From a virus, in the IMG/VR virus record IMGVR_UViG_3300036715_004341, positions 1-60,257 of that record: a stretch of 60,257 nt of DNA; one strand, given 5' to 3'. A program made the position numbers and the translations under genes. Below, piece after piece: positions 9,145 through 49,636 of this stretch. A model generated the notes under the pieces. That model saw only the letters and a program-made list of their open reading frames with translations. It was not told the DNA's origin and did not search any database. The stretch's first letter is position 1, and every line of letters starts with the position of its first letter.

Positions 9145-9590
9145 AGCTCGACCCCCAGGATGGCGGCTGCCTTCCGCACGTCCTCGTCGGTCAGGCCCAC
9201 CTGGGGATCGGGCTGAATGTGGGGGACGCGCTTCCGGTCCGGGTAGTTGACGCGGTCCCCGTCGATCGCCACGAACCCGAGGGCGGCCTGCTCGAGGTGC
9301 GCCTGGAGAAGCCAGCCGACCTCGTTGCACTTGTACGAGGACATCTTGCGCGGCGTCATGGCCAGGAAGGCCCCTGTCCACCCCTTCCTCTGGAGGAGGG
9401 CGGTCAGGGCTTCGAGGGGGAGCATGTGCCCGATCGCGTGGGATGAAGTCGACCTTGCCTGGGATGGGGTTGAGCTTCTGCACCAGCTCCGGCAGCACCA
9501 GCTCCTCGTGGGGGACCTCTGCATGACCTCCTCGCGGGAGGCTTCGGTGGTGAGGACGTTGTCCATGCTGAGAAACCCGATGGGGCGCAT
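9141..9590 (-). CDS. orphan protein with two frame changes
   Basis: ATG 9590 gives MRPIGFLSMDNVLTTEASRE. The frame changes near 9520 to ELVLPELVQKLNPIPGKVDF and again near 9440 to LEALTALLQRKGWTGAFLAM, ending VGLTDEDVRKAAAILGVEL. About 150 residues in all. It diverges from the gene at 9609, their starts only 18 bases apart. No family recognised. Confidence 0.5.
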   Translation of the reverse strand: MRPIGFLSMDNVLTTEASREEVMQRSPTRSWCCRSWCRSSTPSQARSTSSHAIGHMLPLEALTALLQRKGWTGAFLAMTPRKMSSYKCNEVGWLLQAHLEQAALGFVAIDGDRVNYPDRKRVPHIQPDPQVGLTDEDVRKAAAILGVEL

Positions 9591-9597
9591 GGTGTAC
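9591..9597 (+). promoter_or_regulatory. GGTGTAC box in divergent gap
   Basis: GGTGTAC 11 bases before ATG 9609. It abuts the opposing ATG at 9590, so one short element sits between two divergent genes. Confidence 0.55.
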
Positions 9598-9608
9598 CAC
9601 CTACCCCG

Positions 9609-10385: not shown

Positions 10386-11101
10386 ACGACCCCCTCACCC
10401 TCTGGTCCTGGTTCAGCCACGGGCTCCGTATCTACACGGCGGCCACGGCGGGTCAGCAGTACGCCGCCGACCGGATCTACCACCCCTTCATCCAGGCGTG
10501 CCGGGACCGCCTCCCCGCCACCCTGCCCCTCATGACCCTCGCGCTCCTCGACGGGGACCCCGCCTGGGCCCTCGTGCTGGGCGACGTGACGGACCCCCCG
10601 CCGGACGTCCAGGCCCGGGGCGGGTACGCCCACCGCCAGGCGTGGTGGGACTGGGCCCGCCGGCTCGAGGGATGGATGGGGGGCCTCGCGCTGTCCGCCT
10701 TCGACCTCGTGGAGATCTTCCCCCCCAAGACCCTTCCGTACGCCGGCTTCCACGGCAATGGGTGGCGGACCGCCCCCGAGCGGGGGTCCACCGTCTCGAC
10801 CCCCTTTGCGCTCGTCGAGCAAGCCCTCCGCTCCTTCCTGCTCCGGGTCGCCGCCGAGAAGGGCACCCTCCGGCGCTCCTTCGAGAACGGTGAGGAGGCG
10901 GCGGAGGCAGCCCTGGGCCCCGTGGAACCCGGGCAGCGGGTCGTGCGGACCCTGGAGGGGTACTTCGTGCTCCCCGAGAGCTTCGGGGTGATCTGCGAGC
11001 GGGGCGTCGGGCACAGCTTCGACGTGCTGCTCCTCAACGACTTCCGGGCCATCGAGTACCGCTGGCTCACGGCCTACGATCTCATCTCCGAGGACCCGTG
11101 A
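10382..11101 (+). CDS. tagged protein, tandem paralogue
   Basis: 239 residues from GTG 10382 (GTGA overlap). It aligns by eye with the preceding gene: IYHPFIQACRD against RQHPFYREVV, WWDWARRLEGWMGGLALSAF against the WWRWLRAEG block, and EGYFVLPESFGVICERG against its C-terminal region. Ends LTAYDLISEDP. Similarity is moderate, so the duplication is old. Coupled to the third tagged gene by another GTGA overlap. Confidence 0.8.
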   Translation: MNDPLTLWSWFSHGLRIYTAATAGQQYAADRIYHPFIQACRDRLPATLPLMTLALLDGDPAWALVLGDVTDPPPDVQARGGYAHRQAWWDWARRLEGWMGGLALSAFDLVEIFPPKTLPYAGFHGNGWRTAPERGSTVSTPFALVEQALRSFLLRVAAEKGTLRRSFENGEEAAEAALGPVEPGQRVVRTLEGYFVLPESFGVICERGVGHSFDVLLLNDFRAIEYRWLTAYDLISEDP

Positions 11102-11532
11102 TCATCTACCGCTACCAGGAAGTGCTCATGTACCCTCCCGGGGCGACGGTCCCCTACGACTTCTCCCCGGCCACGGAGAGCTGGTCGCTCGTCTTCCTGG
11201 AGGTGCAACCCGCGGACAGCTTCACGGAGTGCTGGCGACGGCACGAGAACCCGTCGGAGGAGATCGTCTTCATGGAAGCCCAGGGGAACCTTGCCACGGC
11301 CCACAAGCGCTGGCACGAACTCCACCAACAGGTCCAGTACCTCTTCGGGCAACGGAGCGAGGTCCTGGTCTTCTTCACGCTCCTCGCCCTCAACGGGACC
11401 GAGATCTACCTCGGGGGCCTGGTCGCCTGGGGCCCCGTGACGCACTTCGGGGAGGAGACAGGGCCCGCGTGGTGGGGCACCCCCTTCACCCCTCCCGTCT
11501 ACCCCACCGCCTACGATTTCCTGCTCCGCTGA
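11098..11532 (+). CDS. tagged orphan, TAYDFLLR tail
   Basis: 144 residues from GTG 11098. Contains WSLVFLEVQPADSFTECWRR and a central helix (ATAHKRWHELHQQVQYLFGQ), then a beta-rich region, and ends PTAYDFLLR. It is the third consecutive tagged gene in this operon and is followed by a hairpin region before the convergent phosphatase gene. Function unknown. Confidence 0.8.
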   Translation: MIIYRYQEVLMYPPGATVPYDFSPATESWSLVFLEVQPADSFTECWRRHENPSEEIVFMEAQGNLATAHKRWHELHQQVQYLFGQRSEVLVFFTLLALNGTEIYLGGLVAWGPVTHFGEETGPAWWGTPFTPPVYPTAYDFLLR

Positions 11533-11538
11533 GCCCGG

Positions 11539-11573
11539 GCGCAACAAGGTTGTTGCGCAACAGGTTTGTTGTG
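11539..11573. terminator. nested hairpins between convergent genes
   Basis: GCGCAACAA and TTGTTGCGC pair perfectly around GG (11539-11558). The right arm can instead pair with TGTTGTGC further on (11555-11573), so two alternative hairpins are possible. There is no long T-run. The position between converging genes fits a two-way terminator. Confidence 0.55.
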
Positions 11574-11574
11574 C

Positions 11575-12336
11575 TCAGGCCCAGGGGATGGGCTCGTGGG
11601 GGACCCGGTAGGCGCGCTCGGCCCGTACCTGCTCGAACCGGTACGTCAGATCCGGTTCCACGATCAGGGCCGTCAGGTGCCCCCCGTGAACGCAGCCCGT
11701 GTCGACTCCGAAGCACAGGGCTCCCTGGGGGGTCTTGTGGACGTGGGGCACGCTCAGGGTGTGCGCCTCGTGCCCGTAAACGACGTGGTCCTGGCCGTTG
11801 TACCGCGTGACCCAGTGCGAGACCTTCTTGTGGGTCCCTCCGGCCACGTCGTAGTCGACAGGGACGTGCTTTCCGGCCTCGTCGACCCACCGCAGGCGCA
11901 TCAGCTCCCCGGGGTCGTGGGTCTCGGGCGTGTAGCCGGGCCGCAAGCCCCCGTGGACCGCGACGATGCCAGGCCAGCGCCGGTAGAGGGGCAGGGCCTC
12001 GATCCAGGCCCAGTCGTCCTCGGACATGCGCGTGAGAAGGTCCTCGCCCTCGAAAGGCATGGCCTTCATGGGGTTTGCGTACTTGGGGTCTGTGGCCCGC
12101 TTCTTCTCGTGCTTCCGGTAGCGCAGATACCAGTCCTCGTGGTTGCCGCGGATGGCCCTGGCCCCGATCTGCCGGGCGAACTTCACCGCCCCGGCCGCGT
12201 CCGGCCCCTTGTCGAAGAAGTCCCCCAGGCAGACGACCTCGTCCTCCGTGGCCGGCTTGACCTTGTCGATCAGGGCCTCGAACTCGGCCCGGCACCCGTG
12301 ACTATCCCCGATGAAGACCAAACGTCCGTTTCGCAT
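11575..12336 (-). CDS. PPP-family serine/threonine phosphatase or Ap4A hydrolase
   Basis: 253 residues from ATG 12336. Metallophosphatase motifs in order: GDSHG (10-14), GDFFDKGPD (about 38-46), GNHED (65-69), VAVHGG and YGHEAH. They match lambda-type phosphatases and PrpE/ApaH-like enzymes, which use a dinuclear metal centre to dephosphorylate proteins or cleave diadenosine tetraphosphate. Phage-borne members are known; the substrate here is open. Cytosolic. It lacks the C-terminal tag. Confidence 0.85.
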   Translation of the reverse strand: MRNGRLVFIGDSHGCRAEFEALIDKVKPATEDEVVCLGDFFDKGPDAAGAVKFARQIGARAIRGNHEDWYLRYRKHEKKRATDPKYANPMKAMPFEGEDLLTRMSEDDWAWIEALPLYRRWPGIVAVHGGLRPGYTPETHDPGELMRLRWVDEAGKHVPVDYDVAGGTHKKVSHWVTRYNGQDHVVYGHEAHTLSVPHVHKTPQGALCFGVDTGCVHGGHLTALIVEPDLTYRFEQVRAERAYRVPHEPIPWA

Positions 12337-12384
12337 ACCCCCAGGACGGCAGGGGCGCGGGGCTCTGACAAGGCCCCGGCAGAA

Positions 12385-12570
12385 TCAGAGGGTGATGCGG
12401 GCGAGGAGGGCCCCGAGCATGAGCCAGAGCGCGGCCCACTTCAGGCCCTCGGGGTAGGTCTCCCGGGCCTCGCTGGCGATGGCGCCCCCGACGATGCACC
12501 AGAGGAGGGGGAGGAGGAAGTAGGTCCAGGCCATGACCGCAGCGTGCGCCGTGACCCCGCCGAAGGTCAA
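12385..12570 (-). CDS. small membrane protein
   Basis: 61 residues from TTG 12570, whose TTGA overlaps the stop of the larger gene upstream. Hydrophobic segments at about residues 2-32 (AAVMAWTYFLLPLLWCIVGG) and 45-58 (WAALWLMLGALLA). Likely an integral membrane protein with two or three helices, coupled to the upstream gene, which also has a hydrophobic C-terminus. Function unknown. Confidence 0.6.
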   Translation of the reverse strand: MTFGGVTAHAAVMAWTYFLLPLLWCIVGGAIASEARETYPEGLKWAALWLMLGALLARITL

Positions 12571-13109
12571 GAAAAGGGCCAGAAGCCCTTGGGCACCTGG
12601 AACGCAAGGCCCTTGCGAACGAGCCTCCAGACCAGGGGGCCCAGGATCATGCCGAGGAAGCCGCGCAGAAAGAGGCCCTGGAACGAGAACCCCCCGGGGA
12701 GCGGGTTGAGGAAGATGCTGAGGCATTCCCCAACCCACCCCGTGGCCATGTGGTTCCACTCGTTGGGGGTTTCTCGGCGAACCCTCTCTGCAACGTGGTC
12801 AAGGGCACGGCGGGTGTCCTCCTGTGCCGGGGGGCTGCGGAAGTCCGTGTCATCTCTGGGGGGCGCTACCCTGGCCAGTCGCTGGTCGGGGACATGAAGC
12901 TCATGCCCCAGCTTCGCGAGCTTCTCGGCCACGGCGACCAGGTCCTCGTCCGCGGCGTCGTTGTAGAAGCTCGGGTCGAACCACACTTTCGGGCAAAAGG
13001 GCGCCCGGCAGGCGTGGCCCCAGTACCGGATCTTCTCGTCTCCGTGGGCGGGCCTGTCGGCAAAGACTTTGTGGGAGGTGCCCCAGAAGCCGGGGTGCTT
13101 GTGCATCAT
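12567..13109 (-). CDS. orphan with hydrophobic C-terminus
   Basis: 180 residues; two ATGs at 13109 and 13106, with a GGTGTAG box 8 bases upstream of the first. The N-terminal half has WGHACRAPFCPKVWFDPSFY, with Cys/His residues and an acidic helix (DEDLVAVAEKLAKLGHEL). The C-terminal 50 residues are hydrophobic (FLRGFLGMILGPLVWRLV), suggesting membrane attachment. Coupled to the next small membrane protein. No family recognised. Confidence 0.7.
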   Translation of the reverse strand: MMHKHPGFWGTSHKVFADRPAHGDEKIRYWGHACRAPFCPKVWFDPSFYNDAADEDLVAVAEKLAKLGHELHVPDQRLARVAPPRDDTDFRSPPAQEDTRRALDHVAERVRRETPNEWNHMATGWVGECLSIFLNPLPGGFSFQGLFLRGFLGMILGPLVWRLVRKGLAFQVPKGFWPFS

Positions 13110-13117
13110 GCCCCCGT

Positions 13118-13124
13118 CTACACC
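13118..13124 (-). promoter_or_regulatory. GGTGTAG box
   Basis: GGTGTAG on the minus strand, 8 bases before ATG 13109. Confidence 0.6.
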
Positions 13125-13126
13125 GC

Positions 13127-13471
13127 CTACTCCCCGGGGAAGTACCGCTCGATGGCGAGGGTCATGGCAATGCGCCCCACGGGGTTCATGGAGTGGACCT
13201 GGGGCTTCTCGGTCGGCCACTTCCCGTGCTCGGCCATCCACAGAACGAAGTCGTAGCCGTTCTTGACGTGCCGGCAGCCCCGGGCCTGGTCGTCGTTCTC
13301 GGCCCGCTTCACGCACGGCTCGCAGGCCCCGAGGTCGTGATCGAGGCTTGCCTCTTCCCACAAGGCACTTCGCTCGACGAGGGCGATGGCCTCCTCGACC
13401 GTCTTCACCCACGTCCACCCCTCCAGGCCCCGGTGCAGGGGGTTTCGCTCGTCGTCCAGCCACAGCTTCAT
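13127..13471 (-). CDS. cyclic-phosphate-processing receiver (cREC) protein
   Basis: 114 residues from ATG 13471 (ATGA overlap). LWLDDERNP near the start, then a T-EEAI helix (24-31), SLDHDLG (42-48), GYDFVLWM and a final VHSMNPVGRIAM. These are the hallmarks of the receiver-like family that comparative-genomics work on RNA repair links to 2',3'-cyclic phosphate processing. Family assignment is by recalled motif pattern. In this window it is one of several candidate RNA-repair parts. No C-terminal tag. Confidence 0.75.
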   Translation of the reverse strand: MKLWLDDERNPLHRGLEGWTWVKTVEEAIALVERSALWEEASLDHDLGACEPCVKRAENDDQARGCRHVKNGYDFVLWMAEHGKWPTEKPQVHSMNPVGRIAMTLAIERYFPGE

Positions 13472-14001
13472 GTTTCCAGTATCCTGTCGTAGAGGGTTGC
13501 AGACCAGGGTTCTTCGCGGAGGGCGTAGGTGCCTTCGGGGAGAGTGAAGACGAACCCGAAGTGGCCGAGGGACCCGAGGATGCGGTCCATCACCTCCCCG
13601 GGGATGGGCTTCGGCTCGTTCGTGCGCTCCTCCCACCCGTCGGCCAGGGCCTCCAGGGCGGCGGGGTACGGGGGGCCGTTCAGCCAGAGCAGCATGTGGA
13701 CGAGCGTGGTCGCATGGATGTCGTCCCAGAACTCCCGGCTGTCCTCGGCCGTCTTCTCGTAGTCCACGCACAGGATTTCCAGGCACAGTGTCCGCACGAA
13801 GTCCCCCTTCGTGGGCCCGTCGTCGGCCCCGGCCCGCCAGACCAGGTCGAGGAGGGGGCTGAGATCCGCCGCGTAGTCCCGGGCGATCCCGAGGACCCGC
13901 TTCTCGAACTCGCTCGCCCGGGTCGGCTCCTCGGGGGCCTAGGACAGGTAGACCGCCCAGAGGGCTTTGGCCTCCAGGTAGGTCAGGAGGGGGATGCTCA
14001 C
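13468..14001 (-). CDS. tagged protein with in-frame TAG
   Basis: Read from GTG 14001, which overlaps the upstream TGA, the frame is open for 20 codons (IPLLTYLEAKALWAVYLS). It meets TAG at 13939-13941, then continues coding-like in the same frame (PEEPTRASEFEKRVLGIARD) to ATLYDRILET and TGA, the shared tag. No start codon follows the TAG until GTG 13797, well inside the coding-like part. Nonsense mutation, sequencing error or amber read-through are all possible. 177 codons in total. Confidence 0.6.
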
Positions 14002-14273
14002 GTCCGGGCCTCGTACCGGCGCAGGACCCACGCCACGGCGGCGTCGAGCTGGTCGAAGTTCGCTTCGTCGGGGGCAGGGTGCTGCTTCGTCTGGGCCAGG
14101 CCCGCCCAGAACTGCCCGTCCACCTCGACGATGCCGAAGCCGTCCTGGTACACGTCAATGCCCGCAGCGTGCTCGACGGTCTTGCCGCCGACGATGTGGA
14201 GGTGCGGGGTGGCCGGCCCCATGCAGGGGAGGCCGGCCATGGTGATGCGCTGAAGGGCGGCGGCGAGGTCCAT
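13998..14273 (-). CDS. orphan protein
   Basis: 91 residues from ATG 14273, with a GGTGTAG box 9 bases upstream. Compact alpha/beta look: GGKTVEHAAGIDVYQDGFGI, then a helix ending VAWVLRRYEART. The reading frame is also in phase with the upstream gene across its TAG, probably by chance. No family recognised; no tag of its own. Confidence 0.7.
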   Translation of the reverse strand: MDLAAALQRITMAGLPCMGPATPHLHIVGGKTVEHAAGIDVYQDGFGIVEVDGQFWAGLAQTKQHPAPDEANFDQLDAAVAWVLRRYEART

Positions 14274-15955: not shown

Positions 15956-16465
15956 TCAGCCAAGCAGGTCGTAGGCGGTCATCACCGGCAGAAGGGGGAA
16001 GGGCTCCCCGCCCTCCCAGGTCGCGTCGAGGAGGGTGCAGGCGACCCCCGCCCCGGGGTTACGGATCCGGCTCCCGATCCGCAGGTCCCCCGGCCAGACC
16101 AGCGCCCCGTCCTCGTCCCTGGTGGGCGTCCACGGGTAGGTTCCCAGGGCAAAGGCGGCCACCTTGGGGTCCCGGGTGTTGGTCGGGCCCTCGCAGTGCA
16201 GGGTGATGGCGAAGAAGGTGCTGGGAGTCCAGGGGAGGACCTCTCGTAGCTCGGGCAGCCGCAGGTTGGCGAGCCGTGACCACCGGTCGTCGTCCCGCAG
16301 GTAGCGGAGGTCGACCCCGGGCCCCTTCTCCTCGCAGACCGCGCAGGTGAAGAAGAGCCCGTCGATCGGGTCGGCGTGCAAGGTGATCGGGCTCTTGTGC
16401 AGCGGGACCCGGGCGTGCCGGAGGCAGTGAGCCCGCGCTTCGGCCAGCCACCGGGCGAACCTCAC
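15956..16465 (-). CDS. tagged protein with possible zinc site
   Basis: 169 residues from GTG 16465, overlapping the TGA of the methylase-helicase gene. N-terminal helix (RFARWLAEARAHCLRHARV), then ADPIDGLFFTCAVCEEKGPG with a CxxC pair, and FFAITLHCEGPTNTRD. Ends MTAYDLLG, the shared tag. The coupling suggests co-expression with the large gene; function unknown. Confidence 0.8.
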   Translation of the reverse strand: MRFARWLAEARAHCLRHARVPLHKSPITLHADPIDGLFFTCAVCEEKGPGVDLRYLRDDDRWSRLANLRLPELREVLPWTPSTFFAITLHCEGPTNTRDPKVAAFALGTYPWTPTRDEDGALVWPGDLRIGSRIRNPGAGVACTLLDATWEGGEPFPLLPVMTAYDLLG

Positions 16466-19400
16466 GCCGCCAGCTCCGGCCGCTGCTTGATCCACTCGGC
16501 GAGGGCCCGGCCGACCGAGAGGCTGGCCATGGCATCGCCCTCCCCGACTCCCGCGGCGACCAGGGCCCCCTCGGCGTCGAGGCCGTCGGTCGCCCGGCTC
16601 ACCGCCACCTTGAGCAAGAGGAGCTTGTAGAGCGCCCCCTGCAAGGTGCTCCGGTAGACCGGGAGGTAGACCCTGGTGGGCCGCGTCTGCCCGATCCGAT
16701 CGATCCGGCCGATGACTTGCCGGTAGGTGATCGGGTTGCAGGCCGGGTTCTCCATCACGTAAATGCGGGAGAAATGGACAAGATTATTGAGCCCGGTCTG
16801 GATCGTGGTCGGGTTGCAGAGCAGGACCCGCCGGTTCTTCTTGACGATCTCCTTCTCGATCCACCCCTGGCGCTTGGCCGTGGGCACCTTGGCCGGATCC
16901 AAAATCGGGGCGTCCACCCCTGACTCGCGCTCGATCATCCACTTGTAGCGGGCGAGCAGGTTCGTGTGCCAGACGAGAAGGATCACGTTCTCCCCCGCGG
17001 CCAGGTCCCGCCGGAGCTGATCGAGCATCCACTGCTCCTTCGGGAGCAGATCGAGCGGGTCGGTCGCGTCCCCCGTGGACACGACGCCGCCCCCGATCTC
17101 GGCGGGGTAGCGGATCTCGTAGGTTCCTTCCTCCTGGTTGCCCACGCCGCCCGGGCAGCGGTCGAGGTAGGAGGGCAGCTCGGACAGGGCTCCGAAGAGC
17201 TTGCCCGACCGCTCGCTGAACTGGTCCTTCTGCATCTGCCCCACCAGATCCCGGAGGAGGCGGCTGTAGGCGGAGTGCTGGGCCGCTGTCGGCGTGATGT
17301 CCACGCGCTCCTCGACCATCGGGGGGATGTCCGCCCGGGCGTCCGTCTTGTGGATGACGCACGCCCTCTTGAGCAGGTAGCGGTAGATGAAGAGCGGCAG
17401 GACCCCGGGCGCGTAGCCGGTCATCCGGGTGGAGCGCTCCACCCGATCGGTGTGGGTCCCGAAGGCCACGACCTCGCCCTTCTCGTCCTTGTCCTGGACC
17501 AGCCTTTTGCGGTAGCCGTAGCGGTCCATGAAGGCCGTGACCTCATCACGATCGAACTCCTGCCGGAAGGCCCGATCGGTGGCCCAGGTGTTCGTGAAGA
17601 GCGACGAGGCGTAGCCGTTGCTGACCGTGCCGGTGAGCATGAGCATGGGCCAGCCGACCTCGGTCAAGAGGTGCGCCGCCCGCTCCTGGGCCGACCCCTC
17701 GCTCGCGTATTCCTGGATCTCGTCAAGGACCAGGGAATCGAAAGCCGTCCGGTAGCGCTTGGCGATGAAATCGGCGAGGGGCACCCGGCGGAAGGAATCA
17801 GGGCTCGACTGGTAGAGCGTCTCCCCGCACTCCTCGCCCCGCTCCCACTGGCCGAGCCCGCGGAAGAGCAGGAAGCCCTCGACCAGCATCTCCGCCGAGA
17901 GCGGGTCCTTGCCCCCCCACTGCCAGGCCCCGTCCTTCAGCGTCCACTTCGCGAGGAAGCCCGTGTCGTGCCCCCCACGGGCCTGGAGAGGCCGGCCGTT
18001 CGCCTTGTCGTCGAAGGCCCGCTCGACCATGAGCCAGGACGACGTCGCGTAGTATCCCGCGTCGGGCACGCTCCGCAGAAAGGCGACCAGGTCAGGGGCC
18101 CGGCTCGGGTCCAGGGACAGCATGAGGCTCACCGCGGCCTGCTTGAGCCAGTAGGCCCCCGCCACCCCCGCGCCCCAGAGCATTCGGGCCGCCCGCTCCC
18201 GGGTTTCCTCGTCCCGGAGCGAAAGCCCTAGGGCGACCGCGGCCTGTCCCATCTTCTCGAGCACGTCGTAGGCGCCCGGCACCATCTGGGCGATCTTGAT
18301 CAGGGCCTCGATGAGCAGGCCGCTCCGTTCCAGGCCCGCCCACTGAGCCGCCTGTGCCTCCTTGGTGGGCGCCTTCGTGTTCACCCGGCGACGGGCCGCG
18401 CCCCCCGCGTAGGAGAGCAGGGTGGGGGCGAGGAGGTAGGTCTGCCGGGCGATCTGCTGGGAGAGCTTCGCCACGTCGTCGAGGGCCAGGAGGGGCCGGT
18501 GCCCGCAGACCATGCGCTTTTTCGCCAGCTCCTCCGGCTCCTCCCCGAGCGCGGAATGGCAGGCAGGGCAGCGGCGGCTCACCCCCTCCATGGCGTGGCC
18601 GAGCTTGGCCGTCTCCCGTGACAGGATCGCGATCCGCCGCCCCGGCGTCCGGTCCGCGGCGTAGGCGATCACGTCCTCGACCGTGGTCAGGACCGAGCAC
18701 CGGGCATCCTTGACCGTCAGCGAGACCTGCTCCTTCCAGGAGTCGAGCAGGTGAGGGGGGCACAGGATGAGCGAGGACTTCGCCCCGATGGCTTCCAGGG
18801 TCCCGAGGGCAATGATCGATTTGCCCGATCCAATCTCCCCCAGGATGAAGGCCGATCGGTGGTGCCGGCGAGCGAGAGGGAGCGAGGGACCCCCGAGCAG
18901 GGTCACCGCGGCCCGTACAACGTGCTCCTGGGCCTTGAAGAGCGGCCGGCCGAGCGTGGGCAGAGGGAAGTGCTGGGTCACGTCCGCCGGGTCGTAGGAG
19001 ACGGGGCACTGCTTGAGGAGGACCCGCATCAGGGCCTCGCCGTAGTGCGCGATCAGGTCCCCGGTCGACATCTGGGCCACGGTGCGGGTCATCGTGGGCG
19101 AGGGGCTACTCGACAGCGTGTGGTAGGTCTTTGCCTGGAGGTCGAGCACCGTCACGACCAGCTTGGGGGCCTGGATCTGGACCTCGGCGGTCACCTCCCC
19201 CTTCTTGTTCGTCTTCTCCTCGACCTTGCGCCATTCCTTGTCGAAACAGCCCTTGATCAGCAGCTTCGGCAGGTGCGACTCCGGATCGTCCGGGCCGATG
19301 ACCGCCCCGTTGAAGATGCCCGCCGCGATCCCCGTCGCGATGTGCTGAGCCTTCGGGGGCATGGCCAGGGGATACCGCCGGTCGAGCAGATCCCGCACCT

Positions 19401-20214
19401 GTTCGGTGGGCACCACGCCCTCGATGAGCGTCGTCCGGCCCGCCTTGTCACTCACCCCCCACGGCCGGAAGGCCGCGGTCAAGGTCGAGAGGTCAACGCG
19501 GTCCATGATCACCGTCTCGAAGCCCGCCCCGCTCCGGGGCAGGACCGTGATCACCGGGGCCTCGGTTGTCCCCAGCTCGGGCATGTCCCCGCCCGCGGCC
19601 CACGCTTCCACCTGGGCCCGAACGTCCGGGTTCAGGTGCCCGGTCATGGTTCGCTCGGCGACCAGGACCACCTGCTTGAACGTCGCGAAGTGCTCCCCGG
19701 GGAACCGGAAGCACTGGAGGCCCGTGTACTTCGTCGCCAGGGTCTCCGCGGATGCCTTGAGGGCGTAGAAGGGCACCACGAACACGAGCACGCCCCCCGG
19801 GGCCAACGCCTCCGTGAACCGGCGGAGGAAGCGCTCTTCCAGCCGCCCGCAGACCGGGTCGAGGTCATAGGGGGGGTTCAGGTAGAGCAGCGTTGCCCCT
19901 GCGTTCCGAACGCTCCTCGTGAGCCTCGCCCGGAAGGCATCCCCGTGAAGGGCCATCCGGCAGGAGACGTAGCCCCCCTTGGCCTGCGCCGTCGTCTGGA
20001 GGTCCTTGAATCGCGTGGCCTCCATCTCGATCGACACGACCGTCCGCCGGTTGAGCGCTTCGGCGAGCGTGAAGATGGCCTCGCCCTTGCCAGCGCAGGG
20101 GTCGAGGAAGCAATGGCCCCCGTCCGGGCAGGCCAGGAGGCCCGCGATGAGGGGGAGGAGCGCTTCCGGAGTTTTGTAGTACCCCCCGACGCTGATGCTG
20201 GCGAGCCTAGCCAT
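16462..20214 (-). CDS. N6-adenine methylase-SF2 helicase fusion
   Basis: 1250 residues from ATG 20214. The N-terminal Rossmann methylase carries YYKTPEALLPLIAGLL, FLDPCAGKGEA (36-46) and NPPY (113-116), resembling the DUF6094 type. The helicase part has Walker A GEIGSGKS (about 456-463), a Cys motif CPACHSAL (about 551), a Walker B-like VLDEIQEY (about 826) and motif VI RQVIGRIDRIGQ (about 1165-1176), as in SNF2-like enzymes. The architecture recalls phage and plasmid anti-restriction proteins of the DarB kind, which methylate and move along DNA. The exact role is inferred. Coupled to the tagged gene downstream. Confidence 0.85.
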   Translation of the reverse strand: MARLASISVGGYYKTPEALLPLIAGLLACPDGGHCFLDPCAGKGEAIFTLAEALNRRTVVSIEMEATRFKDLQTTAQAKGGYVSCRMALHGDAFRARLTRSVRNAGATLLYLNPPYDLDPVCGRLEERFLRRFTEALAPGGVLVFVVPFYALKASAETLATKYTGLQCFRFPGEHFATFKQVVLVAERTMTGHLNPDVRAQVEAWAAGGDMPELGTTEAPVITVLPRSGAGFETVIMDRVDLSTLTAAFRPWGVSDKAGRTTLIEGVVPTEQVRDLLDRRYPLAMPPKAQHIATGIAAGIFNGAVIGPDDPESHLPKLLIKGCFDKEWRKVEEKTNKKGEVTAEVQIQAPKLVVTVLDLQAKTYHTLSSSPSPTMTRTVAQMSTGDLIAHYGEALMRVLLKQCPVSYDPADVTQHFPLPTLGRPLFKAQEHVVRAAVTLLGGPSLPLARRHHRSAFILGEIGSGKSIIALGTLEAIGAKSSLILCPPHLLDSWKEQVSLTVKDARCSVLTTVEDVIAYAADRTPGRRIAILSRETAKLGHAMEGVSRRCPACHSALGEEPEELAKKRMVCGHRPLLALDDVAKLSQQIARQTYLLAPTLLSYAGGAARRRVNTKAPTKEAQAAQWAGLERSGLLIEALIKIAQMVPGAYDVLEKMGQAAVALGLSLRDEETRERAARMLWGAGVAGAYWLKQAAVSLMLSLDPSRAPDLVAFLRSVPDAGYYATSSWLMVERAFDDKANGRPLQARGGHDTGFLAKWTLKDGAWQWGGKDPLSAEMLVEGFLLFRGLGQWERGEECGETLYQSSPDSFRRVPLADFIAKRYRTAFDSLVLDEIQEYASEGSAQERAAHLLTEVGWPMLMLTGTVSNGYASSLFTNTWATDRAFRQEFDRDEVTAFMDRYGYRKRLVQDKDEKGEVVAFGTHTDRVERSTRMTGYAPGVLPLFIYRYLLKRACVIHKTDARADIPPMVEERVDITPTAAQHSAYSRLLRDLVGQMQKDQFSERSGKLFGALSELPSYLDRCPGGVGNQEEGTYEIRYPAEIGGGVVSTGDATDPLDLLPKEQWMLDQLRRDLAAGENVILLVWHTNLLARYKWMIERESGVDAPILDPAKVPTAKRQGWIEKEIVKKNRRVLLCNPTTIQTGLNNLVHFSRIYVMENPACNPITYRQVIGRIDRIGQTRPTRVYLPVYRSTLQGALYKLLLLKVAVSRATDGLDAEGALVAAGVGEGDAMASLSVGRALAEWIKQRPELAA

Positions 20215-21440: not shown

Positions 21441-21476
21441 GGGGGTACTACGCGCCGGCCTGGTCGGAATCAAAAC
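21441..21476 (-). promoter_or_regulatory. TTTTGATTCC ... GTAGTA promoter element
   Basis: On the minus strand TTTTGATTCC (complement of 21466-21475) is followed after about 12 bases by GTAGTA, just before ATG 21440. Counting the inner TTGATT as a -35 gives 16 bases to GTAGTA. The same layout occurs before 29908 and 34015. It overlaps the end of the upstream gene. Confidence 0.6.
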
Positions 21477-22281
21477 CGACGAGCGCGAAATACGACGTGA
21501 TGATCTCGGCCAGGAGGGCCGCGAAGTCCTCATGGCTGGCCGAGAAGGCCACGGCGGGCATGAAGCCCAGGGTGTCGAGGCCCTCGGTCGTGAGCCGGAA
21601 GCGCGCGTGAACGCCCCACGGGGTGTTGTGATAGCCCGAGGTGTCCCCGTCGAGGCTCGCCAGGCCCCGGGCGAGGCAGGTGTAGAGGAGCATCGCATAG
21701 AAGCGGGTATCGGCCGGCCAGGGGGCACGGCTCCGCCGGTCGAGGTAGGCCGCGAAGTACGGGGCGAGGTCCAGGACCGCCTCCGCGTGCTTGGGCAGGG
21801 GGGCTTTCAGCCAGGCCGCCATGTGAGCCAGGGCGCCCTCCCTGTCCCATACCTGGCGGGTCACCTCGTCCCGCCCGAGGGCCAGGATGAACTTGATCCC
21901 GTCCGGTTCGACCATCCCCGGGTCGAGGGTGAAGAGGTCGTGAAGGTAGAGCGTGGTGGCCACGCCGTCCGGAAACCGCTGCGTCAGCCCCGAGAACTTC
22001 GACGACTTCAGGAACTCCATGCGGTCTTTGCGCGACCGGGAGTAGGTGTTCTGAGGGACGAAGACCGCCTTCTTCCCCATGCGCAGATTGGCCACGAGGG
22101 GGCGGCTTTCTGCCTCGGATGCGACGACGACCGCCCAGACAGGCCGCTGGTTGTCCGTCGTGGCCTCCCCGCCGTACCACATGCCGTCGGCGGTGATGTG
22201 CGCGGCCAGGTAGCCGCTGAAGCTCCGACCCTTGCCGTTGCCCTTGCCCTCCACTTCGGGGGCGATGATGAACTCACGCAT
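21448..22281 (-). CDS. orphan protein, 277 residues
   Basis: From ATG 22281, with a GGTGTAC box 10 bases upstream. N-terminal region with SGYLAAHITADGMWYGGEAT, then VWAVVVASEAESRPLVANLR and a helical C-terminal half (MLLYTCLARGLASLDGDTSG, FAALLAEIITSYFALVGFDS). It has the look of a globular enzyme but no motif was recognised. Ends in a TAG that is itself part of the downstream GTAGTA element. Confidence 0.75.
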   Translation of the reverse strand: MREFIIAPEVEGKGNGKGRSFSGYLAAHITADGMWYGGEATTDNQRPVWAVVVASEAESRPLVANLRMGKKAVFVPQNTYSRSRKDRMEFLKSSKFSGLTQRFPDGVATTLYLHDLFTLDPGMVEPDGIKFILALGRDEVTRQVWDREGALAHMAAWLKAPLPKHAEAVLDLAPYFAAYLDRRSRAPWPADTRFYAMLLYTCLARGLASLDGDTSGYHNTPWGVHARFRLTTEGLDTLGFMPAVAFSASHEDFAALLAEIITSYFALVGFDSDQAGA

Positions 22282-22768: not shown

Positions 22769-22915
22769 TCAGCTCTCCGGGTCAGCCGGTCCTTCCTCGT
22801 CCTTCGTCTCCTCGGCTGGCGGGGGTGGGGCCTTCGCAGGCGCCGGGGGCCAGACAACGGGGACGGGGAACGTCAGGGGCTCGGCGACGATGAGCTGCTC
22901 CAGGGTCTCGTTCAT
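22769..22915 (-). CDS. small acidic Pro-rich protein
   Basis: 48 residues from ATG 22915, which overlaps the stop of the ADP-ribosylglycohydrolase gene (ATGA). It begins MNETLEQLIVAEPLTFPVPV and ends in a Pro/Ala/Glu-rich, probably unstructured tail. Its composition suggests a linker or binding peptide. No function assigned. Confidence 0.55.
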   Translation of the reverse strand: MNETLEQLIVAEPLTFPVPVVWPPAPAKAPPPPAEETKDEEGPADPES

Positions 22916-23856
22916 ACCTTTGCGGGCGGCAAAAGGGCCCTATCGAGCGTGACCAGCTCGTCCAGCTCCTGGATGTACCGCTTCATGTCCGCGGGTACGG
23001 GGGACCAGAGGCTCGTCACGCCCCCCGCCATCGCCGCCCTCGTGTCCGTGTCCCCGCCTGTCCGGATGCTCAGCTCGACCACCTGGCGGTAGTCCTCCCC
23101 GAGAAGGATCGCCGCCACGGCTGTCCCCACGGCCTCGACCACGCCGTCTTCCAGGCCGGCCGAGAGGGCGATGAGGGCGTTGAGCTTGCCCGGCTTGCCC
23201 CCCGTCAGAAGCTCCTCGCTCTCCCCGAGGGCCGCGGCCATGTTCAGGGCCGCTCCGAGGGTCGACTCCCGGGGAAGCTGCTTGCCGAGGATGCGGACGA
23301 GACCCGGGCTCACCCGGGGGACGGCGGTCTTCCGCGCCTGGGAGGAGGCGAGGACGTAGGCGGCCATCGCCGCGATCACGTAGGACCCGTCGACCGCTTC
23401 GGCCCGGACGTGGGTGAGCAGGGCGTCCGCCTCGCAGACCTCCTTGAGCTTCATCGTGTCCCGCCAGTACCAGAGGCCCAGGGGGAGGGCCCGCATGGCG
23501 GTCCCGCTGCCCTTGGCCCCGTGGATGCCGCACTCCTCGAAGGAAGCCCCGGCGTCCAGGTTCTCCATCGCCGCCCGGACGGCGTTGCCCATCCCTCGCG
23601 CCTCGCCGCTCTGGTACCAGGTGAGGTACTGGGCCGCCGCCAGCTCCTGCCGGTAGCCGCCCCCCGCAACCAGGGCCCGGGCCAGGCAGAGGGCCATCTG
23701 CGTGTCGTCGCTGTACTGACCCGGCCCGCAGCCGTGGAAGGGGCTCCCGGTCGTCGGGGGACCGCCGTCCCACCGCTGGAGCTTGTCCGCGTCGGGCGGC
23801 ATCAGCTCGAAGGGCACGCCCCAGGCGTCCGCCACTGCCTTGCCGACGAGGGTCAC
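22912..23856 (-). CDS. ADP-ribosylglycohydrolase (DraG-like)
   Basis: 314 residues from GTG 23856 (GTGA overlap). Family signs: GKAVADAWGVPFEL near the start (usually GDALGxPxE, here AD for GD), QYSDDTQM (48-54) supplying the metal ligands, a helical body, and SIRTGGDTDTRAAMAGG near residue 270, the second metal-binding motif. DraG-type enzymes remove ADP-ribose from proteins or nucleic acids. In a phage this could reverse host ADP-ribosylating defences; that role is inference. Untagged. Confidence 0.85.
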   Translation of the reverse strand: MTLVGKAVADAWGVPFELMPPDADKLQRWDGGPPTTGSPFHGCGPGQYSDDTQMALCLARALVAGGGYRQELAAAQYLTWYQSGEARGMGNAVRAAMENLDAGASFEECGIHGAKGSGTAMRALPLGLWYWRDTMKLKEVCEADALLTHVRAEAVDGSYVIAAMAAYVLASSQARKTAVPRVSPGLVRILGKQLPRESTLGAALNMAAALGESEELLTGGKPGKLNALIALSAGLEDGVVEAVGTAVAAILLGEDYRQVVELSIRTGGDTDTRAAMAGGVTSLWSPVPADMKRYIQELDELVTLDRALLPPAKV

Positions 23857-42970: not shown

Positions 42971-43726
42971 TTACAACAGCTCCCGTACCTCGAAGTGCAT
43001 CCCGTCGGGCCGGCCGGGGAAGTTCCCGCCCCAGAAGAAACCATGCTCATGGGCGAGGGGCACGAGGTCCCGACAGGACCCCTTCGCCCCGCTCGCCGCC
43101 GGGATCTTGCCGAGCCCGTTCCACCCGGCATTGATGTCGAAGGCGGTGCCCCAGGCGTGGTTGCTCAGGTTGGTACGGCTCCCCCGGACGAAGCGAGGCG
43201 CCCAGCTCCCCGCCCACGAGAGCACGAGGGGGAGCAGGCCCGCCTCCTCCCACGCGGCCCACAGGGCCTGGAGCTGAGGGGCCGCCTTCCGGTGGAAGGG
43301 GACCTTGTGGCTCCCCGGGGCCCCAAGGACGCCCGCAAGCTGCGGCAGGTCCACCGTCACGATGTTCTGCGAAGGCCAGCCGTCGGTGATCGTGATGGCC
43401 TCCGTAACGGTGGCCGTCGGCGACGGGCGGTAGGCGAAGGTCCCGAAGAGCTGCGCCCGGTCCGCCGCGGACAGGGGCCCCGGGTGGTCGTCGGCAGGCG
43501 GCCCCGGGATCGCCATGCCTCGGGAAACCGCTTCGGCGATCGTCTTGGGACCTGCGATTCCGTCGGCCCCGAGGCCGGCGTACCGCTGGAAATCCACGGT
43601 CGCCTGGCGGGTCTCGGCGTCGAACACGCCCGTCACTTCCCCGTGGTAGAGGCCCTCCCCGAGCAGGAAGGTTTGCCACGTCCGAACCTCGGGCCCCGTG
43701 CTTCCGGTTTGCATCGTCATCGTCAT
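42971..43726 (-). CDS. M15 D-Ala-D-Ala peptidase endolysin with PG-binding domain
   Basis: 251 residues from ATG 43726, preceded by AAGGAAGG. Residues 5-65 are a peptidoglycan-binding domain (STGPEVRTWQTFLLGEG, GVFDAETRQATVDFQRYAGL, DGIAGPKT). The C-terminal half is an M15 (VanY-like) peptidase with SNHAWGTAFDIN and GMHFEV, the zinc ligands being the His and Asp of the first and the His of the last motif. It would cut peptide cross-links in the cell wall at lysis. No signal peptide, so a holin or other export is needed. Confidence 0.9.
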   Translation of the reverse strand: MTMTMQTGSTGPEVRTWQTFLLGEGLYHGEVTGVFDAETRQATVDFQRYAGLGADGIAGPKTIAEAVSRGMAIPGPPADDHPGPLSAADRAQLFGTFAYRPSPTATVTEAITITDGWPSQNIVTVDLPQLAGVLGAPGSHKVPFHRKAAPQLQALWAAWEEAGLLPLVLSWAGSWAPRFVRGSRTNLSNHAWGTAFDINAGWNGLGKIPAASGAKGSCRDLVPLAHEHGFFWGGNFPGRPDGMHFEVRELL

Positions 43727-43769: not shown

Positions 43770-44480
43770 ATGGACACCATCGACGCCGCAAACGACGAGA
43801 CAAGCTATCTCTCCAAGGTCTACGGGCTGCTCACCCTGGGCCTGGGGATCACCATGACCACCGCGTACCTCGCGGTCACCCGGGGGGCGACCGTTCCGGT
43901 CGAAACGAAGCACGGGCCCATGCTCGTGACGCCGGCCGTGTCCCTCGCCGTCGAGCACCCGCTCCTGCTGTCCCTGATCTTTCTGGCCCTGGCCGTGGTC
44001 GCGGCCGTGGTCCGCAAGGTCAAGGGCATCGGCTTCCTCGTCTTCGCGGTCTTCACCGTGGTGTCGGGGCTGCTGATCGGGCCGGCCATCGCCTACGCCG
44101 AGTTCAAGGCGTCGCAGGGGCTGGGCCTCTCCCCGCACCCGGTCCGGGACGCGGGGCTCCTCATCACGGCCGCCTTCGTCGGCCTCTCGGCCTACACGCT
44201 GATGAGCAAGCGGGACTTCTCGTACATGGGAGGCTTCCTCTTCTCGGGGCTCATCGTCCTCATCGGGGCAGGCATCCTCAACCTCTTCCTCGGATCTTCG
44301 GTCCTCGGCGTGGCGGCGGCGGGGGTCGGGGTCATCCTCTTCCTCGGCTACATCCTCCACGACACGTCGAACATCCTCCGGGGCAACCGGGATGACGCGG
44401 TCGGCGACGCCCTGAACCTCTACCTGGACGTCCTCAACATCTTCCTCGACATCTTGCGCCTCTTCGGCAGCAAGGACTGA
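43770..44480 (+). CDS. Bax-inhibitor-1 (YccA/YbhL) family membrane protein
   Basis: 236 residues from ATG 43770. Short polar start (NDETSYLSKVYGLLTLGLGI), then seven hydrophobic helices, for example LLLSLIFLALAVVAAVV, FLVFAVFTVVSGLLIGPAIA, FSGLIVLIGAGILNLFLG and the last LYLDVLNIFLDILRLFG. The family includes proteins acting as leak channels or as FtsH-linked membrane factors. It is unusual in phages; it could modulate host membrane integrity or stress during infection. Inserted by the host machinery. Confidence 0.85.
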   Translation: MDTIDAANDETSYLSKVYGLLTLGLGITMTTAYLAVTRGATVPVETKHGPMLVTPAVSLAVEHPLLLSLIFLALAVVAAVVRKVKGIGFLVFAVFTVVSGLLIGPAIAYAEFKASQGLGLSPHPVRDAGLLITAAFVGLSAYTLMSKRDFSYMGGFLFSGLIVLIGAGILNLFLGSSVLGVAAAGVGVILFLGYILHDTSNILRGNRDDAVGDALNLYLDVLNIFLDILRLFGSKD

Positions 44481-44512: not shown

Positions 44513-44929
44513 CTACCCGAGGATGATGTCGTAGGCGCTCTTCGGGGCGCCTGGTTCCGTTTCCTCCTCGACGCGGACGCTGAGGGGGCGCCAGGGGGAC
44601 TGGGGGCGGAGGGTGCGCCAGTCGGGGAAGGTGACCCGCTCGTAGTCGAGCCCCTCGGTCGGCCAGTAGACGTAGTCGGCGCGGGCGATGTCTCCGGGGT
44701 CGAGGTCCTGGGCCGCGTGGAACAAGACCCAGGCGATCTTGCCGACCTTGACGAAGCAGGGGTTGTTGACGCCCGGCTTCGTGGTCCCGCCCTTGTCCCC
44801 CACGGCCCGGACATACCGGGCCGCCATCTTCTCGGCCCTCTTCTTGTCGGCCGCCAGGAAGATCACGCACTTCCCCTCGACCACGACGTCGCGGAGTAGC
44901 TCTTCGAGGAGTCCGGGTCCGGCTCGCAT
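44513..44929 (-). CDS. tagged orphan, KSAYDIILG tail
   Basis: 138 residues from ATG 44929. VVVEGKCVIFLAADKKRAEK then CFVKVGKIAWVLFHAAQDLD and a strand-rich section. A Glu/Pro-rich linker (RVEEETEPGAP) precedes KSAYDIILG, the shared tag. Alternating strands and helices suggest a small alpha/beta fold. Function unknown. Confidence 0.8.
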   Translation of the reverse strand: MRAGPGLLEELLRDVVVEGKCVIFLAADKKRAEKMAARYVRAVGDKGGTTKPGVNNPCFVKVGKIAWVLFHAAQDLDPGDIARADYVYWPTEGLDYERVTFPDWRTLRPQSPWRPLSVRVEEETEPGAPKSAYDIILG

Positions 44930-46479: not shown

Positions 46480-46812
46480 ATGCCCTTGCCCCGTCGTCGT
46501 GGTGGTCGGTATCGCAACGTCCACGAGGAGCCCCTCCCCCCCTGTGCAAGCGACAAATGGCGGGAGTGGTCTGCCCCCCTGCTCGGCTTCCTATCCGTCC
46601 CCCGGACCTGGGCCGAGATCAATGCCTGGAAGCAGACCAGCGGGCACGATGCCTCGATGCTCCGCAACTGCCTCGCCTGGCTGGAGACCATGAAGCTCGT
46701 CCAGGACATGACCGAGGAGGGCGAGGTCCGCTGGGTCGGGCGGGAGGCCCTGGCGGATCACCTGCTCGCCCGGATGGGGGCCACCCTGGCCGCCTCCCCC
46801 CCGGCGCCCTAG
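46480..46812 (+). CDS. winged-helix-like protein
   Basis: 110 residues from ATG 46480. Basic start (PLPRRRGGRYRN), then helices with LGFLSVPRTWAEINAWKQTS, a likely recognition-type helix SMLRNCLAWLETMKLVQ and a strand-turn-strand (EEGEVRWVGREAL), the outline of a winged helix. A transcription factor is plausible; targets unknown. The end overlaps the opposing gene by four bases. Confidence 0.6.
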   Translation: MPLPRRRGGRYRNVHEEPLPPCASDKWREWSAPLLGFLSVPRTWAEINAWKQTSGHDASMLRNCLAWLETMKLVQDMTEEGEVRWVGREALADHLLARMGATLAASPPAP

Positions 46813-47840
46813 CGCTTGTACCCGGCCTCGCGCATGAGGGCCTCGTACTTGGACCCGAAGTCGAACATCTGATTCCAGAGGTCGAGCTTCCTCGCCAACC
46901 ACTTGTTCAGGGCCATGCCGAACTCGTGGTAGAGCCGTTCGAGCTTGTCGGCGATCCGCGTGAGGGAGTCGGAGTGCTGGGGGTCGTGGTCCTCGTGCTT
47001 GTCCGCGTCTTCGAGGACGTACTTCTTCGAGTCCATGAGCATCTTCGAGAAGGCCGAGGACTTGCTGAGCTTGTCGTAGACCTTGTTCCGCTGACCCAGG
47101 ACATCGTCCAGCTCGTCGCGCAGCTTGAGCATGGTCCGGGGGAGGCCGCAGTAGTCGTCGGCGATGTCCTCGGCGGCGGCGATCCACACGTCCCCGGCCT
47201 TCTCGATCCGCTTGATCGCCGGTTCCAGGAGCCCTTCGGTGCGGACGTGGCTGATCTCCGCCTCGGACTCGAAGGCCAGCGACTCCCGACGGATGGCCGA
47301 GTCCATGGCGGCGCAGGCCATGCTCCACTTGCCGATGGCCGCCTCGGACAAGCTGTTGCCCATCAGCCCGCGGAGGAAGTTCTGGCGCTCGTAGTCGACG
47401 GTCTGCGCCGCGTTGCTGAAGATCTGGTAGCTGCGGATGTCGACGTACTCCCCGGCGAGGTACTTCTTCCAGGTCGCGGCCTGCTTGCGCAGCTTCTTGA
47501 CCGCCAGCTCCCACATCATCTTCGTGGACGTCTTGCCGCAGGCCCCGCTCTTCCCGTCGTTCGTGTTCCAGAGGAGAGCGATCATCATCTCACCCGTGTC
47601 GTTGCTCGGGGGGAGGAAGGCTTGCCGCAGCATCTCCTTCCGGTCCGGGGGCAGGGCCGGGTCGTTCATGAGGGGCTTGATCTTCTTCGTGATGAACGCG
47701 ACGAGGTCGTTGTCCGGCTTGGCCAAGAGGGCCCTGTCGGTCTTGAGCGCCTTGTCGAGCGGGTCGGCCCCCTTGTCGTAGGTGAGGTCGTCCGCCCGCT
47801 TCCGCCAGCGGGCGACCAGGGCGTCGGTGATCCGGCTCAC
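46809..47840 (-). CDS. large helical protein, possibly structural
   Basis: 343 residues from GTG 47840, overlapping the TGA of the LigT-protease gene. Nearly all helix with many Lys, Asp and Glu: MWELAVKKLRKQAATWKKYL, FLRGLMGNSLSEAAIGKWSM, LRDELDDVLGQRNKVYDKLS. No motif recognised. The tight coupling suggests that it works with, or is a substrate of, the upstream metalloprotease, perhaps as a virion or scaffold protein; inference only. Confidence 0.65.
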   Translation of the reverse strand: MSRITDALVARWRKRADDLTYDKGADPLDKALKTDRALLAKPDNDLVAFITKKIKPLMNDPALPPDRKEMLRQAFLPPSNDTGEMMIALLWNTNDGKSGACGKTSTKMMWELAVKKLRKQAATWKKYLAGEYVDIRSYQIFSNAAQTVDYERQNFLRGLMGNSLSEAAIGKWSMACAAMDSAIRRESLAFESEAEISHVRTEGLLEPAIKRIEKAGDVWIAAAEDIADDYCGLPRTMLKLRDELDDVLGQRNKVYDKLSKSSAFSKMLMDSKKYVLEDADKHEDHDPQHSDSLTRIADKLERLYHEFGMALNKWLARKLDLWNQMFDFGSKYEALMREAGYKR

Positions 47841-49636
47841 TTCGACCCCCGGGGGATCGACCCGAGGACGGCCCGGATGGCGCCGAGGTCCCGCGCCGTC
47901 TTCCCGTCCCCGAACACCCGCTTCTCGAAGAGGACGCTCTGGTGGACGGGCAGCTTGTCCATGCAATAAAAGGCGAACATTTCGGCGAAGTTCTCCGCCG
48001 GGCTCGTCTTGGCGTAGTTGGTGACGAAACCCTTGTAGTTGGGGTCGGTCTCGGCCATGTTTTTGCGGGTCACGCCCTTCAAGGCGTAGAAGGTGTCGAA
48101 GCTCGTCGTGACCGATCCGGACCGGCCCCCCTCGGGCTTGAGGCGGACGACCTGATGGTACGGGTCGGCGCTCACGACCTCGAACACCTTGCCCTGGCTC
48201 TTGACGGTGTCCCCGGGGGCGGGGGTGGGCATCTTGCGCTCGGTCTTGTCCTGGTGGGCGATGGCCTGGTAGAGCGTGTCCGCCACCCCCCTCGGGAGCT
48301 GCTTGTTCTCCCACCGGTGCCCGAGTTCGTGGATCACCGTGTGGACCGTGTCCCACTCGGGCTTGCCGTTCGCCCGGATGTACAGGCCGTCGTCCTTCGT
48401 CTGGTAGAAGGCGAGGACATTCGATCGCATCAGGGTGTTGGTGATCTGGATGGGCCCGTAGCAGCAGGCCCCGAGGCCCGCGCGCTGGATGAGCTGGGTC
48501 GACTTCTGGACGATCTCCTCCATGTTGGCCATGACGTCGGGCTTGAAGCCCCCCGTGTTGACCAGCGTGAAGGGGCCGACCTTGATCTTCGTCCCGGCCC
48601 CGGTCCCCTCGTCCCCCGCCTCCCCGTGGGCCTTGCCGGCAGCCAGGGCCTTGACCGCCACGTCGAGCTGCGTCCCGATGGCCGTCGCCTGCCGGTCGTA
48701 CCAGGTGAGGTAGTCGAAGGTGGAGTTGCGCGTCGTCATCCGGGGCCGGCTGGGGCGCTTCGCCCAGACCCGCGCCGCTGCCTCGACCTTCTTGCGCAGG
48801 GCATCGGGGAGCGTCAGGGCCCCCAGTATCCCGAGAAAGAGGCGGTCCCCGGGCAACTGGAGCCCGATGTACTGGGGCCACTTCTCGTAGACGACCTTCG
48901 ACTGGCCATCCTGGGCCAGCCCGAGTTCCGCGGGCGTCGCCGATCCGGGTTCCTTGACCCTCTTCGTGGCCGCCTTGAGGGCCGCTTGCAGCATGTCCTG
49001 TTCCTTGAGGAATGCCTGCGCCCGGTCGTTGAACAGCTTGAAGTCAGCCGGCGGGTCGGCCGCCGCCTGGACCCGGCGCGCGAGCCGCTCGGACATCGTC
49101 GTCTTGAATGGGAAGGTCATGCTCACCCTGTCTTCTCCTTGGTCTCCGCCCCACACCACGATGTCCGTCACCTCCCACCGTACCCCCGGGTCGACGTTCT
49201 TGTTGGCGGCGCCGTCGTAATGGACGGCGGGGTCACCAGAGTAGGCCAGGGTGACGTGGGGCCGGTAGACGGGGAACTTCTCGTCGTAGGCCACCCCGTG
49301 CTCCTTCAAGGTGGCGCACACCCGCTCCCGGAGGCGGTGCAGGTCATCGCTCTCGACCTTCCCGATCACCGGCACCGTGCCCTTCTCCGGGTGCGGGGCG
49401 AAGGTCCCCACCTCCCGCACCGCCGCCTCGAAGGGCTCGGTCTCCCCGGCGACGTCGAGGAGGGCGCTCATGCACCCCTCCAGGGTCTCCGCCGGGACAT
49501 CGTCCCCGAGGTAGACCATCGTGACGTGATACCAGGCGGGGTCCTCGGGCTCGCCGAACTTCCCGACCTCGACCCGCTCCACCAACTGTTGTGCTGCCTG
49601 GCGAGGCACGCGAAGTCCGACGAAGGCCATTGCCAT
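47837..49636 (-). CDS. 2H phosphoesterase (LigT-like) fused to HExxH metalloprotease
   Basis: 599 residues from ATG 49636. N-terminal 185 residues: WYHVTMVYLG (H37, T39) and YRPHVTLAYS (about 127-136), the paired HxT motifs of 2H phosphoesterases, which act on 2',3'-cyclic or 2'-5' RNA ends. After a helical middle, VHTVIHELGHRWENKQ (about 428-443) is an HExxH zinc site and SPAENFAEMFAFY (about 546) can supply the third ligand, a gluzincin-like layout. The fusion is unusual. It may be a virion protein; both activities are inferred from motifs. Confidence 0.8.
   Translation of the reverse strand: MAMAFVGLRVPRQAAQQLVERVEVGKFGEPEDPAWYHVTMVYLGDDVPAETLEGCMSALLDVAGETEPFEAAVREVGTFAPHPEKGTVPVIGKVESDDLHRLRERVCATLKEHGVAYDEKFPVYRPHVTLAYSGDPAVHYDGAANKNVDPGVRWEVTDIVVWGGDQGEDRVSMTFPFKTTMSERLARRVQAAADPPADFKLFNDRAQAFLKEQDMLQAALKAATKRVKEPGSATPAELGLAQDGQSKVVYEKWPQYIGLQLPGDRLFLGILGALTLPDALRKKVEAAARVWAKRPSRPRMTTRNSTFDYLTWYDRQATAIGTQLDVAVKALAAGKAHGEAGDEGTGAGTKIKVGPFTLVNTGGFKPDVMANMEEIVQKSTQLIQRAGLGACCYGPIQITNTLMRSNVLAFYQTKDDGLYIRANGKPEWDTVHTVIHELGHRWENKQLPRGVADTLYQAIAHQDKTERKMPTPAPGDTVKSQGKVFEVVSADPYHQVVRLKPEGGRSGSVTTSFDTFYALKGVTRKNMAETDPNYKGFVTNYAKTSPAENFAEMFAFYCMDKLPVHQSVLFEKRVFGDGKTARDLGAIRAVLGSIPRGSK

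Follow-up and report, generated by a model that had tools for sequence, protein, structure and literature searches.

A predicted 2H phosphoesterase and a zincin-type metalloprotease in one huge-phage protein, with an address-like tag between them

The 60,257-base stretch of DNA analysed here (the window), a complete IMG/VR record, encodes a 599-residue protein in which a predicted 2H phosphoesterase is followed by a short address-like tag, a helical domain and a zincin-type metalloprotease (Table 1). The initial annotation had placed the two enzymes in one chain, and this proved to be real; both assignments hold on the basis of Pfam, AlphaFold2 and invariant residues. The protein is best read as an effector of the 'polyvalent' type with one targeting tag common to its modules, which probably serves packaging into the virion. 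More generally, we place at roughly 0.5 the probability that uncultured huge phages mark varied accessory enzymes, encoded by separate genes or joined in chains of up to 2534 residues, with one short, position-tolerant helical tag, that this tag directs them all to a single destination, the virion being the likeliest, and that the single tag of the window protein serves both the 2H domain and the protease. The window itself very likely comes, as a fragment, from a huge phage of the G001 kind, since about two dozen of its genes have relatives, with identities of up to 62%, in this 435-kb phage record.

Table 1. Features of the 599-residue protein and its overlapping neighbour in the window.
Feature	Residues	Window positions	Strand	Basis or remark
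Fused ORF: 2H phosphoesterase, tag, helical domain, zincin metalloprotease	1-599	47837..49636	-	
2H phosphoesterase domain	3-176	49109..49630	-	Pfam, AlphaFold2, Foldseek
First HxT motif	H37-V-T39	49520..49528	-	H and T invariant in 13 sequences
Second HxT motif	H127-V-T129	49250..49258	-	H and T invariant in 13 sequences
Internal address-like tag, TMSERLARRVQAAAD	180-194	49055..49099	-	Predicted helix 181-190
Helical domain, conserved with the protease	195-333	48638..49054	-	AlphaFold2, alignments
Zincin-type metalloprotease domain (predicted)	350-576	47909..48589	-	AlphaFold2 pLDDT about 90
HELGH, predicted zinc-binding/catalytic motif	436-440	48317..48331	-	H436, E437 and H440 invariant (n=21)
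Beta-rich insertion between HELGH and third ligand	about 472-512	48101..48223	-	Strands 477-512
Predicted third zinc ligand helix		47981..47995	-	E548 invariant, E552 nearly invariant
343-residue helical protein		46809..47840	-	GTG start overlaps stop of the 599-residue gene

A single open frame with two predicted enzymes

The 599 codons form one open frame, and GC at the third codon position stays at about 0.77-1.0 along all of it, the junction between the 2H domain and the protease included. Because there is no internal stop and third-position GC is constant, a frame error joining two genes, which the initial annotation had named as one way to refute the fusion, is not visible and was rejected together with a hidden stop. 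Comparison with the G001 orthologue points to Met3, at position 49630, as the likelier start, and this residue rather than Met1 may be the true beginning of the protein. AlphaFold had been suggested as a check of the domain borders. The models of the two halves, built with separate alignments, support both folds, with the 2H domain spanning residues 3-176 and the protease 350-576, but give no relative placement of the two.

The N-terminal domain belongs to the 2H phosphoesterase superfamily, LigT/ThpR type, and is a predicted enzyme, according to sequence and model. First, the two HxT motifs previously noticed within the first 135 residues keep H37, T39, H127 and T129 in all 13 aligned domains. 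Second, the Pfam family 2_5_RNA_ligase2 (PF13563) matches above its cut-off (E=4.7e-17), and LigT_PEase matches with E=2.9e-12. Third, the AlphaFold2 model (pTM 0.75; final strand at 171-176) has the same fold as LigT/ThpR 2',3'-cyclic RNA phosphodiesterases (1iuh, 5ldm and 5h7e; Foldseek E 9e-9 to 3e-7), which have both HxT motifs in common with it. The nearest solved structures are bacterial and archaeal LigT-type proteins, namely, 1iuh, a 2',3'-cyclic phosphodiesterase (E=8.9e-9), E. coli LigT (5ldm, E=1.4e-7), 1vdx and 5h7e; unlike these enzymes, the window domain is joined to a tag and a protease. The anti-CBASS nuclease Acb1 shares the 2H superfamily, but its profile (PF23474) matches weakly, with 24.0 bits (E=3.5e-5) against a Pfam cut-off of 27 bits, and LigT-type relatives fit far better by Foldseek; identity with Acb1 was therefore rejected.

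The C-terminal part is a zincin-like metallopeptidase with an intact predicted active site, as judged from sequence and model. The HELGH motif and the downstream glutamate near residue 548, both pointed out earlier, correspond to residues 436-440 and to E548 as predicted third ligand, and all 21 aligned proteases keep H436, E437, H440, Y541, E548 and F550. The modelled helices that carry HELGH (428-446) and the third ligand (546-558) fit the zincin pattern of HExxH plus Glu. AlphaFold2 pLDDT is mostly above 80 over the helical and protease part, and mostly 72-96 in the helical domain. The insertion is SH3/KOW-like by topology, with weak structural matches of the Spt5 KOW type.

Assignment to a named peptidase family was less straightforward. 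Peptidase_Mx1 (PF15890) covers only residues 523-560, with E=9.4e-6 and 25.6 bits, exactly at its cut-off of 25.6, and it matches seven of the 21 family members at E<=0.01; for Peptidase_Mx/Mx1 and lethal-factor-type families, which were considered and not adopted, the sequence matches are borderline or insignificant. Searching the PDB with the protease model gave no match below E=0.1. The best fold matches are predicted structures of putative zincin peptidases of jumbo phages, namely, a Motura protein (E=6e-5), a putative peptidase of PaBG (E=6e-4) and an 'M34 endopeptidase' of Erwinia phage pEa_SNUABM_5, with E from 6e-5 to 6e-3 overall. These are only 11-14% identical to the window protease and, unlike it, none is described as a 2H fusion.

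Protease relatives occur in 25 viral loci, whose contigs measure 38-536 kb, as well as in an uncultured GenBank phage of 485 kb and, with a weak match, in an enrichment virus of 197 kb, while a scan of cellular genomes from 84,980 species found none. In the viral and cellular scans, then, the family was seen only in uncultured large phages.

A short tag shared by unrelated accessory enzymes

Many huge-phage proteins begin with a motif like PLALRVARLFLARS, of consensus roughly LAxRVAxRYLxAK, and in the window protein this motif lies between the last 2H strand and the helix that opens the protease part. It stands at the start of unrelated accessory enzymes, namely, metalloproteases, topoisomerase IB, UvrD helicase and an ADP-ribosyltransferase-like protein; the tagged proteins of G001 include four metalloproteases, one topoisomerase IB and one ADP-ribosyltransferase-like protein, the last named from sequence motifs and not from a database match. 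We found no description of such a shared tag in the open-licence papers searched.

To score the motif we used a matrix of 15 residues built only from 16 G001 N-termini, with 1311 distinct proteins of other phages as the test set; the test genes were called by script, and most loci had been fetched via a protease or 2H domain, which implies a mild selection. In these held-out phages, matches of at least 11 bits were found at 28 of 22220 N-terminal positions, 7 of 34441 near C-termini, 18 of 238603 in the middle and 4 of 295264 in shuffled sequence, that is, 12.6, 2.0, 0.75 and 0.14 per ten thousand positions, respectively. The tag is thus about 90-fold commoner at N-termini than in shuffled sequence. 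The same model gives the window tag 10.5 bits (p=0.0005), the best match after the 2H domain, and with a pooled model residues 180-194 score 7.4 over the whole chain, where the next best score is -3.3.

The position of the tag varies. Among relatives the protease is N-terminally tagged, and stand-alone 2H proteins of several phages are tagged at the C-terminus (p=0.0005 in G002, 0.00025 in G004 and 0.001 in G025), although the closest 2H homologue, from G001, has no significant tag (score -0.3). The tag also follows the 2H domain in fused 2H-nucleotidyltransferase chains. Topoisomerase IB is a separate, N-terminally tagged gene in G001 and L039 and an internal module with its tag kept in L047; as far as these sequences can be read, this enzyme shows directly the step from tagged separate gene to internal module.

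Tags lie at the module borders of the long chains L047, L051 and L065, and the protease is often encoded in the same genome or chain as the tags, which could mean that the metalloprotease family recognises or cleaves this motif and that the chain is a self-processing polyprotein cut at the tag; autoprocessing has indeed been proposed for zincin domains in polyvalent proteins (PMC5512222). We regard this as improbable, because tagged proteins are present in G011, a record of 618 kb in which a search with the protease profile gave no match. Moreover, the tag is mainly N-terminal, 5-15 residues from the start, where cleavage would free nothing useful.

Two further loci deserve mention at this point. 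A 1512-residue UvrD helicase (L059:3257-7795 (+)) has tag-like motifs at its N- and C-terminal ends and contains an intein-like insertion. At L058:3889-8498 (+), the protease and its neighbours begin, by eye, with another shared motif, xELLRIAKELL, as would be expected of a clade-specific address.

Separate and fused 2H domains

The closest 2H homologue of the window protein is a separate 187-residue gene of G001 (64307-64870), with neighbours similar to the genes that adjoin the fusion in the window; the G001 proteases lie elsewhere. In five relatives that have both families (G001, G002, G003, G004 and G025) the 2H domain is a separate gene. In other phages longer chains begin with it, most often in the order 2H-tag-nucleotidyltransferase (L060, L062, L065, L066, L070 and L072). 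A chain of 2534 residues (L047:6018-13622 (+)) holds the 2H domain and the window protease family together, with the modules 2H, poly(A)-polymerase-type nucleotidyltransferase, protease, KOW-like segment, second protease and topoisomerase IB, and with tag-like motifs between them. The exact order 2H-tag-protease was found only in the window protein among the phages compared.

With a separate gene as its nearest 2H homologue, the exact fusion is, by sequence comparison, specific to its lineage, while chains of the 2H-tag-enzyme type recur in other phages. The idea that homologues might always be separate thus applies to the nearest relatives and fails for L047. Likewise, the pairing is less unusual than the initial annotation had proposed, given L047 and given that both domains are catalogued modules of phage polyvalent proteins (PMC5512222).

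These comparisons also bear on whether the fusion is an accident, in which neighbouring genes were joined by recent loss of a stop codon, or by an assembly error, and share no functional coupling. The separate G001 gene far from any protease, the five relatives with separate 2H genes and the single occurrence of this order would agree with such an event, and Met181 lies exactly at the expected start of a protease gene. An internal restart at Met181 is possible, but no Shine-Dalgarno-like sequence was found upstream of it. With a continuous frame and a constant codon signature, with 2H-tag-enzyme fusions in several other phages and with 2H and protease joined in L047, we consider an accidental fusion highly improbable.

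Destination and possible function of the tagged enzymes

Polyvalent proteins of phages and conjugative elements combine disparate enzyme domains in one chain, and Iyer et al. (2017, PMC5512222) propose that they are packaged with the DNA and injected. The domain seen most often in them is the zincin metallopeptidase, and the same survey lists 2H phosphoesterases, nucleotidyltransferases and ADP-ribosyltransferases. The window protein is alike in having two catalogued disparate domains, 2H and zincin, in one ORF. It differs in that no virion-component genes were found nearby, and the group to which it belongs differs in its huge-phage setting, in its partners (topoisomerase IB, and a CCA/poly(A)-type nucleotidyltransferase beside 2H) and in the short tag shared between modules, which the passages of the survey cited here do not mention. 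The 2H-protease chain, as read from its domains, would thus be a polyvalent-type multi-enzyme phage protein, of a kind already known, and the shared tag would be the new element.

The second comparison is with capsid-targeting sequences. In P1 DarB and the T4 internal proteins, unrelated effectors carry a short terminal signal, are taken up into the head and are then injected; for DarB, the first 30 residues are enough to bring about capsid loading (PMC9024508). The huge-phage tag, with its held-out enrichment at N-termini, is similarly a short signal common to several proteins; unlike the P1 Dar proteins, which have no N-terminal consensus (PMC9024508), it is a recognisable sequence shared across families. 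Head packaging is the leading destination because the cargo resembles injected polyvalent proteins and because P1 DarB and T4 use short signals. Against it stands the fact that known capsid-targeting sequences are N-terminal, whereas the tag is also C-terminal, in stand-alone 2H proteins, and internal, in the window protein.

The virion-delivered effector put forward in the initial annotation is plausible and partly supported, given the address-like border motif and this analogy, but no structural gene or prohead protease was found that links the tag to the capsid. No structural gene was found among the genes scanned in the 60-kb window, and searches of the related phages for a portal of the T4 type, for prohead proteases of T4 and HK97 and for one terminase family gave no match, so that the link between tag and capsid is a putative one. 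The prohead protease profiles PF03420 and PF04586 had no match in 14 records, and the control for PF03420 failed as well.

Some tagged enzymes, such as topoisomerase IB and UvrD helicase, could equally fit a role in replication. The motif might then send proteins to another phage-specific site, such as a replication compartment, the membrane or the ribosome, with the 599-residue protein acting late in RNA repair and proteolysis. Its presence on CCA/poly(A)-type nucleotidyltransferase chains agrees with this, as does its tolerance at both protein ends, unlike N-terminal capsid signals. We nevertheless find this reading doubtful, as ADP-ribosyltransferase-like proteins, metalloproteases and 2H domains are the typical repertoire of injected polyvalent proteins (PMC5512222), and the present data give no sign of a compartment in these phages.

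Under the preferred reading, namely a tag for packaging, the tag would gather the accessory enzymes at a single site, in all likelihood the head during assembly, and these would enter the host along with the phage DNA. A 2H module, C-terminally tagged in several relatives, and a protease module, N-terminally tagged in relatives, would have become one chain with a single middle tag. After entry, the 2H domain may open 2',3'-cyclic or 2'-5' phosphodiester bonds, either clearing the RNA ends that toxin RNases of the host leave behind or destroying nucleotide alarm signals, and the protease may set the modules of the chain free or cleave a defence protein of the host. For this full account, from the head to both enzymes acting in the host, we see an even chance. 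If the tag does serve packaging and delivery, it would be a sequence handle with which to list the injected proteins of uncultured huge phages from metagenomes, so that the question of which proteins a huge phage brings along becomes testable, and it could be used for cargo loading. The 2H-protease chain would be a concrete member with two intact predicted active sites to assay.

The overlapping partner gene and other window genes

The stop of the 599-residue gene and the start of the 343-residue gene overlap in GTGA (47840-47837), and the direct coupling of the two, proposed earlier, is therefore plausible. The partner is probably co-translated and may be a carrier, substrate or inhibitor. 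A single-sequence scan with the partner found no relative; a homologue adjoins the protease in another huge phage (L040:9546-10625). That homologue is the last of five adjacent genes around the protease (L040:2702-10625), four of which are N-terminally tagged. The partner itself was rejected as a tagged protein, as its N-terminus scores only -0.6, although its G001 homologue is tagged.

Elsewhere in the window, a 117-residue protein (44513-44866, minus strand) has the tag-like N-terminus KRAEKMAARYVRAVG, with 20.5 bits in the pooled model. Other genes encode an ADP-ribosylglycohydrolase (22912-23856, minus strand; E=9e-56), a Bax-inhibitor-1 family membrane protein (43770-44480, plus strand; E=3e-44) and an endolysin (42971-43726). 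A methyltransferase-helicase (DUF6094 and PHROG helicase), which is a single ORF in G001 (9400-14019), is present as two ORFs (16462-20214 and 21448-22281, minus strand), and the approximately 1.2 kb between them resembles, by eye, a frame-broken GIY-YIG/NUMOD homing-endonuclease insertion.
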